Source: an uncultured Burkholderiales bacterium (GTDB lineage Bacteria > Pseudomonadota > Gammaproteobacteria > Burkholderiales > Burkholderiaceae_C). From it: a DNA stretch of 42,912 nt. The number at the start of each line of letters is the position of its first letter. Positions within the stretch are counted from its first letter, which is position 1. The stretch lies in the NCBI GenBank assembly GCA_903831655.1, contig CAIKYO010000156.1, positions 1 through 42,912 of the forward strand. Direction: 5' to 3'. The position numbers and the translations under genes were made by a program. The notes under the pieces were generated by a model. The model made no database searches and was not told the DNA's origin. It was given only the letters and a program-made list of their open reading frames with translations. Positions 20,440 through 24,868 of the stretch are shown one piece after another.

Positions 20440-20862
20440 ATGACCGAATCTAAAAAAAACCTTCCCCATCCAACCGATTTGGTGGTTCACCAAAGTACGC
20501 GGCAGTTGGAGATCACCTTCTCGGATGCCTCTACTTTTAAGATTCCCTTTGAACTGATGAGGGTCTACAGCCCCTCTGCAGAAGTCCAAGGTCATGGCCC
20601 TGGTCAAGAGGTACTCCAAACGGGTAAGCGAGAGGTGGGCGTCCTTAATTTGGAGCCAGTGGGCAACTACGGCGTGAAGCCCGTGTTCAGTGATGGGCAC
20701 GATTCTGGAATATTCACCTGGGAGTACCTCTATCACTTGGGCTCCCATGAGGATCAATTGTGGGCTGAGTATCTAGAAAAACTACTTCAAGCCGGTGTTC
20801 AAAGGGATGACCCGATGGATAGCGCTATGACAGGGGGCGCTTGTTCAACACACGTTCACTGA
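20440..20862 (+). CDS. DUF971 / gamma-butyrobetaine hydroxylase N-terminal-like protein
   Basis: STRQLEITFSDASTFKIPFELMRVYSPSAEVQGHG...VGNYGVKPVFSDGHDSGIFTWEYLYHLG. Confidence 0.88.
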   Translation: MTESKKNLPHPTDLVVHQSTRQLEITFSDASTFKIPFELMRVYSPSAEVQGHGPGQEVLQTGKREVGVLNLEPVGNYGVKPVFSDGHDSGIFTWEYLYHLGSHEDQLWAEYLEKLLQAGVQRDDPMDSAMTGGACSTHVH

Positions 20863-20965
20863 AGCGAAATGGTTCTCGCTCAAGGGATCCATTCTTGAAT
20901 CTTTGGTGCTAGCCTTTGAGTATTTTTAGAGTTTGGCTTTCGAGAAAATTCAGATCCTTTGTTGA

Positions 20966-21499
20966 TTAAGGTTTTGCCCACCGCCTGATTCTTGCGCGCA
21001 ATCTCCTTTTGTCTTCTTCTCCAATTGGCATGATGGGTATCTTCTCAAGCGCCTCCTCCGGCAAGAGATATCCATAACTTAAAAGTGCTGAACAAAATTC
21101 ACGATCTTTTTCCCTTCCAGCGGCAGCTTTAGATAAAAAGAGGTCGAGTATGTCTAAACAGTATCCGACGCGGTCGTTGGTTCTTATATTCTGTACCCTA
21201 TGAACTCGACTCATCCAGTCCCTAGGTAAAGGGGCTGTATCGGGCCCGACCCCTTGCGCATAGTAACCATGCGTTTCATGAAACCATGAACCCTATCCGA
21301 TTGAACCATCGATTTTGTCAGCCAAATCAGGTGATTGAAGCGGGTAAATGTCCGCCTCCATCGATACTGTAAAGATTCTTTCGGGGTTGGGTACAGCCCC
21401 AAGCAAGGACTGACTTCCGATAATGACAAATTCATACTGACCTGTGACTTCAGCGCTTGCTCTGATAATATGTTCTAGTTCTTCGCGTGTCATGCGCAT
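20966..21499 (-). pseudogene. DUF6036-like nucleotidyltransferase interrupted by an in-frame TAG at 21295..21293
   Basis: Same-frame translation across the two listed ORFs: MRMTREELEHIIRASAEVTGQYEFVIIGSQSLLGAVPNPERIFTVSMEADIYPLQSPDLADKIDGSIG*GSWFHETHGYYAQGVGPDTAPLPRDWMSRVHRVQNIR...AAGREKDREFCSALLSYGYL. 21499 and 21214 differ by 285 nt (95 codons). Confidence 0.75.
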
Positions 21500-21511
21500 G
21501 CCTCTTGAGAC

Positions 21512-22192
21512 TCAAAGAGGCTTCATGCCATTTGATTCATTGCTAAGAATTACGCCTCGTTTAAGGCTACTTACTTGACTTAATATTTCTTGACGCTTTT
21601 TGTCCGGAAGTATGGTTACCAAAGGGGAGCTTTGTCTGAGTTGTTGAGCCCTTCGGGTTTGACTCAGCACCTTTCTCCATGAATGGTCTTTCAAAATTTT
21701 GTCCCACTCAATCCATAACTTTGCGCTGCGTTCATCTCCACGTTCAAGCCAATTCCTCAATGTTTTTTGAGCTTGCAAGAGCAATGAGGGATTGCCCTTG
21801 ACCAATTCAACGGCAACTTCATGTAAAGCTAAACTTTGGAGGTCTTGGAGCTTGTGCCCTGAACTGTCAGCTAAAACCTTGATTTGTACAACGGGTATGG
21901 GTTCAAGTGACTTTGTTCTAAGGGTGCCTTTGGTGGGGGGGTGCATGATCTCACCAGCCAAAAGCGCCAGTTCAGCGCTTATGCCTAAAACTGACATGAC
22001 TCGAATGTAAGCGCCAATAGAGGGTGAAGGTTCACCAGCCTCTACTGATCTCAGTGTATTGCGGGTTAGTTTTGCTCGCCGGGCCACTTCCACCGTTCCC
22101 AATCCTTGCGCTTTGCGCAAACTCTTAAGCCTGTTACCCAGTTGTAATAACAGTTGTCGTTCTAAAAGAGGGTGGATTGAAGAATCATTCAT
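21512..22192 (-). CDS. XRE-family helix-turn-helix regulator with C-terminal extension (putative antitoxin-like partner)
   Basis: LGNRLKSLRKAQGLGTVEVARRAKLTRNTLRSVEAGEPSPSIGAYIRVMSVLGI is a classical XRE HTH; 12 bp separate its stop from the nucleotidyltransferase start. Confidence 0.8.
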   Translation of the reverse strand: MNDSSIHPLLERQLLLQLGNRLKSLRKAQGLGTVEVARRAKLTRNTLRSVEAGEPSPSIGAYIRVMSVLGISAELALLAGEIMHPPTKGTLRTKSLEPIPVVQIKVLADSSGHKLQDLQSLALHEVAVELVKGNPSLLLQAQKTLRNWLERGDERSAKLWIEWDKILKDHSWRKVLSQTRRAQQLRQSSPLVTILPDKKRQEILSQVSSLKRGVILSNESNGMKPL

Positions 22193-22193
22193 G

Positions 22194-22242
22194 TGATCAA
22201 TATTTTAACCAAAAAACAAATATTTGGTTAAAATATTGATCA
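22194..22242. promoter_or_regulatory. Perfect inverted repeat, candidate XRE operator
   Basis: TGATCAATATTTTAACCAAA (22194..22213) - 9 nt - TTTGGTTAAAATATTGATCA (22223..22242), directly abutting the XRE start codon. Confidence 0.7.
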
Positions 22243-22538
22243 ATAATTTTGAATCAATTGTATGAATTTGGAAACTCAAATGCTTCATGACTTGCTGACA
22301 ACCACCCAGGGTAAAGAGTAGATGAGAAGCCAGTAAAGTGGCCTTAATTGCATCTCTTCAATGACTTCCCCTTCATAGACCTAAAACACATTTTGTGTTG
22401 TCGAGTCGTTGTAATTGGGCCAAATCAATTCCAATCGGAAAAGGGTAGAGTCATTGATTGAGCATTTAATTTGGATCAATTGAAAGATTCAAATTGAATG
22501 GTACCCTGTCAACTACCATCATGATGAGCGAATAAACC

Positions 22539-24011
22539 ATGGCTTCACACAAAAAATTTACAAAAGAAGACTTGGCACTTTTGTCCACTCAAGTTTTGCT
22601 TGAAAGAGGACTCAATCCAAACATTTCCAAAGAAGCACTTGAGCAATTGGAGAGCATCGGACAAGCGGCCATGGAGACGGGCCCAGGCATTCAAGATCTC
22701 CGAGATCTGCTTTGGTGCAGCATCGACAACGACGATTCTATGGATTTGGATCAGTTAACGGTCGCCATTCCTGGACAAGATCGAAGCATGAGGCTATTGG
22801 TGGCCGTGGCCGATGTGGACGCCCTTGTGAAAAAAGGGTCGCCATTGGACATTCATGCTCAATTCAACACCACCTCTGTCTATACCTCGGCTCGCATTTT
22901 TCCCATGTTGCCGGAAAAGCTCTCCACCAACCTCACCTCTTTGAACCCAGGTGTGGATCGCATGGCCATTGTGTGCGACATGAGCTTTGGCGAAGACGGT
23001 GAACTAAGGGGCTCCGATATTTACCGCGCCTGTGTTCACAACCAATGCAAATTGGCGTACGACGCCGTCTCAGACTGGTTGATCTCAAAAGGGCCGCTCC
23101 CAAGTGCTGCCAAGCACGTGCACGGGATGGATGAGCAACTCAGGATTCAAGACCGCTTGGCGCAAAAGTTACGAGCCAAACGATATGCCAACGGCTCGTT
23201 GGAGTTTGAGAGTTTTCAGCCCATTGCACAGTTCGATCAAGAACAAATCACAGGGCTGACGCTGCAACCCCATAACCGAGCTCGTCAATTGATTGAGGAG
23301 TTCATGATCGAGGCCAACGGTTGCATGTCGCGCTTTTTAGCTGAGCACACCAGGTCTTCTCTCAGGCGTGTGGTGCGATCTCCTGAGAAATGGATGCGCA
23401 TTGTTGAGGTGGCCTCCCACTACGGTGTGACGCTGCCTATGCAAGCAGACTCCAAAGCGCTTGAGCTTTTTTTGGCACATCAGCACAAGGTCGATCCGTT
23501 GAGATTTCCCGATCTCTCCTTGGTGATCGTGAAATTGATGGGCCGAGGTGAATACGTGGTGGAGCAAAATGCAAAGCATCCCATTGGTCACTTTGGTCTC
23601 GCGGTGAGGGACTACACGCATTCAACCGCCCCCAACCGCCGCTATCCAGACATCATTACCTTAAGGCAAGTCAAGGCCATCTTGGGGGGGGAGCCTTCCC
23701 CCTACAGCCACGCTGAGCTTGAGAGCTTGGCGCTTCATTGCACCCAGCAAGAGGATGCAGCTCAAAAAGCCGAGAGACAGATGCGCAAGTCCGATGCCGC
23801 TTTGCTTTTGGGCTCCCGATTGGGTCAGTACTTTGATGCGCTCGTGACAGGTCTCAACGTCAAGGGCTCTTGGGTTCGAGTCATTGAGCCTCCCGCTGAA
23901 GGACGTTTGATTGGCGTGCTCCCAGCGCTTAGGGTGGGTCAAAAAGTAAGGGTGAAACTCACCAGCACCGATGTATTGAAGGGCTTCATTGACTTTGCGC
24001 TCACGCGCTAG
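22539..24011 (+). CDS. RNB-domain ribonuclease (RNase II/R family, short form)
   Basis: DLLWCSIDNDDSMDLDQLTVA (catalytic Asp cluster), LPEKLSTNLTSLNPGVDRMAIVCDM, EEFMIEANGCMSRFL, APNRRYPDIITLRQV. Confidence 0.9.
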   Translation: MASHKKFTKEDLALLSTQVLLERGLNPNISKEALEQLESIGQAAMETGPGIQDLRDLLWCSIDNDDSMDLDQLTVAIPGQDRSMRLLVAVADVDALVKKGSPLDIHAQFNTTSVYTSARIFPMLPEKLSTNLTSLNPGVDRMAIVCDMSFGEDGELRGSDIYRACVHNQCKLAYDAVSDWLISKGPLPSAAKHVHGMDEQLRIQDRLAQKLRAKRYANGSLEFESFQPIAQFDQEQITGLTLQPHNRARQLIEEFMIEANGCMSRFLAEHTRSSLRRVVRSPEKWMRIVEVASHYGVTLPMQADSKALELFLAHQHKVDPLRFPDLSLVIVKLMGRGEYVVEQNAKHPIGHFGLAVRDYTHSTAPNRRYPDIITLRQVKAILGGEPSPYSHAELESLALHCTQQEDAAQKAERQMRKSDAALLLGSRLGQYFDALVTGLNVKGSWVRVIEPPAEGRLIGVLPALRVGQKVRVKLTSTDVLKGFIDFALTR

Positions 24012-24136
24012 GGTGATCCAGGTTTGTGTGAAGTTCAGACCCCGGGGTCTTTGAATTTAGTGGAATTCCCAACGCCAAATCACCGAATTGTTGAGCCCAA
24101 CTCAAGCCCCTCTCAAAAAACCATTAACATGAAGTC

Positions 24137-24868
24137 ATGAGTAAAACACACTTTGGTTTTCAAGAGGTTGATGAGTCAGAAAAGCAAGCCCGCGTGCGGT
24201 CGGTTTTTGATTCAGTGGCCTCCAACTACGATGTCATGAACGACTTGATGTCCGTTGGCTTGCACCGCTTGTGGAAGCGCTACACGGTGCTGGTCGCTGA
24301 CCTCTCTTTGGGCATGCGGGTGCTCGATATCGCGGGTGGTACCGGGGACTTGGGGCTGGCTTTTTCTAAAAAAGTGGGCTCGACGGGCATGGTCGTTCAC
24401 ACCGACATCAACGAAGAGATGCTCAAAACCGGTAGAGACCGATTGGTTGACTTGAATGTGGTGCTCCCCACTTTGGTGTGTGACGCAGAAAAACTCCCCT
24501 TCAAAGATGCCTCTTTTGACCGAGTGAGCGTGGCCTTTGGTCTTAGAAACATGACGCACAAAGAGATTGCTTTGAAGGAGATGTGTCGGGTCTTAAAGCC
24601 GGGCGGCAAACTCCTCATTTTGGAGTTCTCCAAGGTGGCTGCACCCTTGCAAAAGGCCTACGACTGGTACTCATTTAACGTGCTCCCCAAGCTTGGAAAG
24701 TTCATTGCCAAGGACGAGGACAGTTACCGTTATTTGGCCGAGTCAATTCGCATGCATCCTGACCAAGACACGCTCAAACAAATGGTCAAGGAGGCTGGGT
24801 TTGGGCACGTCGATGTTCACAATTTAAGCGCTGGTGTTGTTGCACTTCACGTAGGGATCAAATGCTGA
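24137..24868 (+). CDS. ubiE: Ubiquinone/menaquinone biosynthesis C-methyltransferase
   Basis: [78 protein letters not shown]. Confidence 0.95.

Follow-up and report, generated by a model that had tools for sequence, protein, structure and literature searches.

A perfect inverted repeat at the start codon of an XRE–DUF6036 gene pair is a probable autoregulatory operator

An XRE–DUF6036 gene pair is located between DUF971 and ubiE

The stretch of DNA analysed here (referred to as the window) comprises 42,912 nucleotides from an uncultured Burkholderiales bacterium (contig CAIKYO010000156.1). Its region 20862-24137 holds an XRE–DUF6036 gene pair and a gene for an RNB-domain protein, positioned between DUF971 and ubiE, so that DUF6036, DUF971, RNB and ubiE are the neighbours of the XRE gene. 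The latter (21512-22192, minus strand) encodes an antitoxin-like XRE-family regulator of 226 aa, in which an HTH_31 domain (residues 17-75) is followed by a C-terminal domain carrying an RQSSP motif. This conserved C-terminal domain also occurs in HTH-less partners of other DUF6036 proteins, and is a putative toxin-binding domain. Behind the XRE gene lies the toxin-like ORF of a DUF6036 nucleotidyltransferase (20966-21493, minus strand), which contains one in-frame TAG (21293-21295) and had been missed in the original prediction.

In all 11 other same-genus loci examined, DUF971 and ubiE were adjacent. In the window, XRE–DUF6036 and RNB lie between them, and the operon is therefore accessory. 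Close relatives of the RNB gene occurred in some same-genus genomes only, and elsewhere. Within the family, 43 of 401 genomes, among them the source genome of the window, carried a full-length ortholog, as did plasmids of Cupriavidus, Hydrogenophaga, Comamonas and Polaromonas. A phage origin was rejected, as the antitoxin matched none of 50,697 phage records and a scan of viral contigs with the toxin alignment found none.

The assignment of the toxin-like ORF was based on its relatives. Three intact ones matched PF19502 with scores of 36.8-39 (gathering cut-off 23.6), and the window ORF, including its TAG, matched the alignment of the intact relatives at E 2.8e-62; its two pieces searched singly gave no Pfam match. 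The TAG sits where the relatives read a residue, and intact DUF6036 relatives are present in many genomes; the stop is either genuine or an assembly error. Given this in-frame stop, the regulator may now act alone in this assembly.

The two ORFs are adjacent and co-directional, with a 4-nt overlap in most orthologs and an 18-nt gap in the window. Among 48 loci with an intact regulator, the toxin was truncated or undetected in 19, where an undetected toxin may also be one that is too divergent. The reverse case, in which the regulator is disrupted while the toxin may be functional, occurred at one locus at most. Loss or decay of the toxin while the regulator is kept would be expected for a toxin–antitoxin pair, suggesting that XRE–DUF6036 is toxin–antitoxin-like, with DUF6036 as the putative toxin. 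At seven loci (L065, L066, L075, L089, L099, L101 and L104), orthologous regulators with an operator-like upstream sequence had no detectable DUF6036 gene behind them; these regulators are either solitary antitoxins or have different partners. No solved structure was found by sequence for the DUF6036 toxin family. DUF6036 was not mentioned in the literature searched, which covered only a minor part of the subscription literature, and within these bounds the pair seems undescribed.

The repeat consists of two palindromes that are conserved upstream of orthologous genes

The region directly upstream of the XRE gene forms an inverted repeat, TGATCAATATTTTAACCAAA-9-TTTGGTTAAAATATTGATCA, at 22194-22242 (no strand assigned). 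In agreement with the original prediction, its arms (22194-22213 and 22223-22242) of 20 nt each are 100% complementary across a 9-nt spacer, and only base 22193 lies between the repeat and the start codon of the XRE gene, which begins at 22192 on the minus strand. It is the longest perfect inverted repeat of the whole window when loops of up to 20 nt are considered. The longest arms reached 13 bp in order-1 random windows of the same dinucleotide make-up (n=100) and 12 bp when the local 600 bp were randomised (n=1000), compared to the 20 bp observed; the repeat is therefore no chance feature. No terminator was found.

The original prediction had overlooked the composition of the arms, each of which is an imperfect palindrome made up of two half-sites. 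In all, 51 upstream regions from Burkholderiales were compared, the 50 distinct ones of which were aligned on the ATG. About 50 orthologous genes (41-63% identity), both chromosomal and plasmid-borne, were preceded by the same element, with its register unchanged. The most conserved positions were those of four half-sites and of the -10 box, and conservation fell off beyond position -53. The conserved unit thus consists of four half-sites (consensus TTGGTCA; type TTGRTYA) that form two 20-bp palindromes, with the ortholog consensus TTGGTCA-N6-TGACCAA for the distal and TTGGTTA-N6-TGACCAA-ATG for the proximal one.

According to the ortholog alignment, the distal palindrome of the window, TTGATCA-ATATTT-TAACCAA, occupies 22224-22243 on the minus strand (half-site 1, 22237-22243; half-site 2, 22224-22230), and the start-codon-proximal palindrome, TTGGTTA-AAATAT-TGATCAC, occupies 22193-22212 on the same strand (half-site 3, 22206-22212; half-site 4, 22193-22199) and abuts the ATG. 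Their centres are 31 bp apart in the window. Of 49 orthologs, 35 had this same spacing and 9 had one of 30 bp, which corresponds to about three helical turns.

Either arm of the large repeat corresponds in essence to one of these 20-bp palindromes, and the large perfect repeat arises because the proximal and distal sites are exact reverse complements in the window. Perfect arms were unique to this genome, and 8-17 of the 20 positions were paired in the other orthologs. As template switching homogenises imperfect inverted repeats (PMC8604942), the perfect arms may perhaps, as a conjecture, have originated by template-switch homogenisation of two already similar sites. Among the orthologs, pairing across the arms amounted to 76% at half-site positions versus 52% at the bases between them. 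The latter value compares to 40% in cross-species shuffles, which makes a weak constraint outside the half-sites possible.

Further copies were searched for in the genome, as the original prediction had proposed. The exact core pattern was present once, and a looser pattern occurred at five places versus one for the reversed control. All but one of the other looser matches were inspected, and none of these displayed the two-site arrangement at a gene start. A dispersed repeat or a regulon was rejected on these grounds.

The predicted promoter lies within the repeat and ends close to the start codon

The best promoter match falls within the repeat (22202-22231, minus strand). It is of the sigma-70 type, with a -35 box TTAACC (22231-22226), an 18-nt spacer and a -10 box TAAAAT (22207-22202), as supported by prediction and conserved position. 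Both boxes are overlaid by the repeat, in line with the overlap between element and promoter that had been claimed originally. From the end of the predicted -10 box to the ATG there are 9 nt in the window and in 36 of the 47 orthologs with a scorable -10 box, and 6-8 nt in the remainder. Transcription would therefore start at the ATG or at most about 3 nt before it, and the XRE mRNA is predicted to be leaderless or near-leaderless, the 9-nt gap leaving room for a leader of about 3 nt at most. The leaderless mRNA hinted at in the original prediction thus appears likely, given the position of the -10 box relative to the ATG. With the predicted promoter within the repeat and the start at the ATG, the operator would cover the -35 box, the -10 box and the start, resulting in a promoter so compact that the operator runs to the start codon.

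With an mRNA that is leaderless or nearly so, no ribosome-binding site would fit between operator and start. Indeed, no Shine-Dalgarno-like 4-mer was present there, as had been noted originally, and a Shine-Dalgarno sequence preceded the XRE start in 1 of 49 orthologs. However, such a 4-mer was present at only 3 of 20 gene starts checked as controls in the window; its absence is therefore weak evidence and was dropped as proof of leaderlessness. It appears that many genes of this genome have weak ribosome-binding motifs or none.

The original prediction had alternatively proposed a hairpin that sequesters the translation start, i.e., a transcribed 20-bp stem in front of the ATG which would occlude the start codon or otherwise control translation. 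The transcript strand folds stably (-27.3 kcal/mol, z -6.4), and the slightly elevated pairing between the half-sites relative to the cross-species shuffles would also fit an RNA structure. However, the sole promoter match found on the minus strand lies within the repeat, and the predicted start at or beside the ATG would leave the stem out of the mRNA; in addition, the stem is perfect in this genome only. A hairpin or riboregulator was therefore rejected and is considered very improbable.

The original prediction also held that the symmetry would affect any divergent promoter. The perfect symmetry creates an equal, mirror-image promoter-like match (TTAACC, 18 nt, TAAAAT; 22205-22234, plus strand) directed toward the RNB gene, the start of which is located about 300 bp downstream. 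Under a bidirectional arrangement, which would add to the autoregulatory model, the XRE protein would also control RNB. However, the mirror -10 box and the spacer bases required for it were not conserved among the orthologs. Moreover, the annotation of the plasmid orthologs shows no RNB gene next to the operon, and RNB was found elsewhere in same-genus genomes. The plus-strand match is thus probably incidental, and a bidirectional operator-promoter appears unlikely.

Half-site sequence covaries with the recognition helix of the XRE protein

To identify the protein that reads the element, the central dinucleotide of each half-site, taken separately, was compared to 172 variable columns of the XRE protein. 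Residue 45, which is located in the recognition helix of the HTH (N45 in the window, codon 22058-22060), ranked first of the 172 columns for all four half-sites. T43 and R48, likewise in the recognition helix, were within the top eight columns for every half-site. N45 was associated with TTGGTCA, T45 with TTGTCCA/TTGTTCA-like sequences and M45 with TTGTCTA. When the HTH was left out of the tree, three of five residue changes and three of six operator changes fell on the same branches, a coincidence reached by about 1% of random draws. Shared ancestry inflates the covariation z-scores, and the column ranking and this modest same-branch test control for kinship.

The covariation with the recognition helix, together with the position of the element, indicates that the XRE protein is the likely reader of the operator. 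Hairpin formation would not predict half-sites that track HTH residues. From the sequence alone, reading by a second, e.g., global, regulator with the XRE protein serving as antitoxin only would be compatible as well. However, XRE residues 43, 45 and 48 co-vary with the half-sites, the element travels with the XRE gene, and among the loci checked no other such site pair preceded a start codon in the genome, rendering a second reader highly unlikely. Reading by the XRE protein itself is further in accordance with an autoregulatory operator, the role suggested in the original prediction, which is now strongly supported by the same-register recurrence before about 50 orthologs, the overlap with the -35 and -10 boxes and the half-site covariation. 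These orthologs also provide pairs of protein and DNA variants from which the choice of half-sites by XRE recognition helices could be learned.

Proposed mechanism and relation to known systems

Taken as a comparative result, the repeat very probably serves an XRE–DUF6036 operon of the toxin–antitoxin type as its autoregulatory operator. Each of the two 20-bp palindromes would be occupied by one XRE dimer, either alone or in complex with the toxin, and as the palindrome centres are about three helical turns apart, both dimers could reside on one side of the helix. The distal palindrome would cover the -35 box, and the proximal one the -10 box, the transcription start and the bases up to the ATG. 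The occupied operator would then exclude RNA polymerase and repress the operon, which would be expressed when free regulator is scarce. The distal site may also serve for activation, as is the case for some C proteins. The half-sites, their spacing, the promoter overlap and the covariation between HTH and half-sites are supported by comparison; we infer direct binding, repression, the leaderless start, co-repression by the toxin and the way in which the arms became perfect. The striking palindrome thereby yields a testable operator model for a widespread and apparently unstudied XRE–nucleotidyltransferase pair. The broader reading, in which XRE–DUF6036 would constitute an undescribed toxin–antitoxin family with a leaderless promoter wholly inside a four-half-site operator and with residue 45 setting the half-site across orthologs (N, T and M classes), is favoured with some reservation.

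Several described systems share elements of this model. C.Csp231I, a controller (C) protein of a restriction-modification system, is likewise a small XRE-type regulator, and two inverted repeats (OL and OR) are embedded in its own promoter, from which a leaderless transcript originates (PMC4824078). Unlike the C proteins, the regulator identified here has a DUF6036 nucleotidyltransferase as partner, a different operator sequence and an extra C-terminal domain. No restriction-modification genes were present among the window neighbours, and no such pair was annotated beside the annotated plasmid orthologs; membership in the C-protein family was rejected due to the missing endonuclease and methyltransferase genes.

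In the Xre–RES system of Pseudomonas putida, an XRE antitoxin has a C-terminal toxin-binding domain, and repression by the complex is exerted at an inverted repeat, a further binding site having been suggested (PMC12204516). In that system, however, the toxin is RES and the C-terminal domain is DUF2384, whereas the XRE–DUF6036 locus has two full palindromes that are three turns apart and end at the ATG. AbiE/Rv2827c-type systems possess a nucleotidyltransferase-type toxin and a two-domain antitoxin that autorepresses through promoter inverted repeats (PMC7319586). The likeness extends to the nucleotidyltransferase-type partner and to the autorepression through promoter inverted repeats presumed for the window, but AbiEi antitoxins and DUF1814 toxins belong to other families. 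AbiE type IV membership was rejected, as Pfam and NCBIfam assign XRE HTH and DUF6036 rather than AbiEi/DUF1814. PaaR2–PaaA2–ParE2 of E. coli O157:H7 has a toxin–antitoxin regulator with a lambda cI-like leaderless mRNA and with palindromes that overlap its promoter (PMC8630535), but is a prophage system of three genes and includes a divergent partner regulator, no counterpart of which was found at the window locus.

C.AhdI and C.BclI were detectable relatives of the window XRE protein within the HTH. The N-terminal part varies among DUF6036 partners: at three loci (L009, L010 and L011) the partners have the RQSSP C-terminal domain without an XRE HTH, and two of them carry a different N-terminal segment, AAERMRxYRAR. 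This suggests that DNA-binding domains may have been swapped among the partners of DUF6036 proteins.
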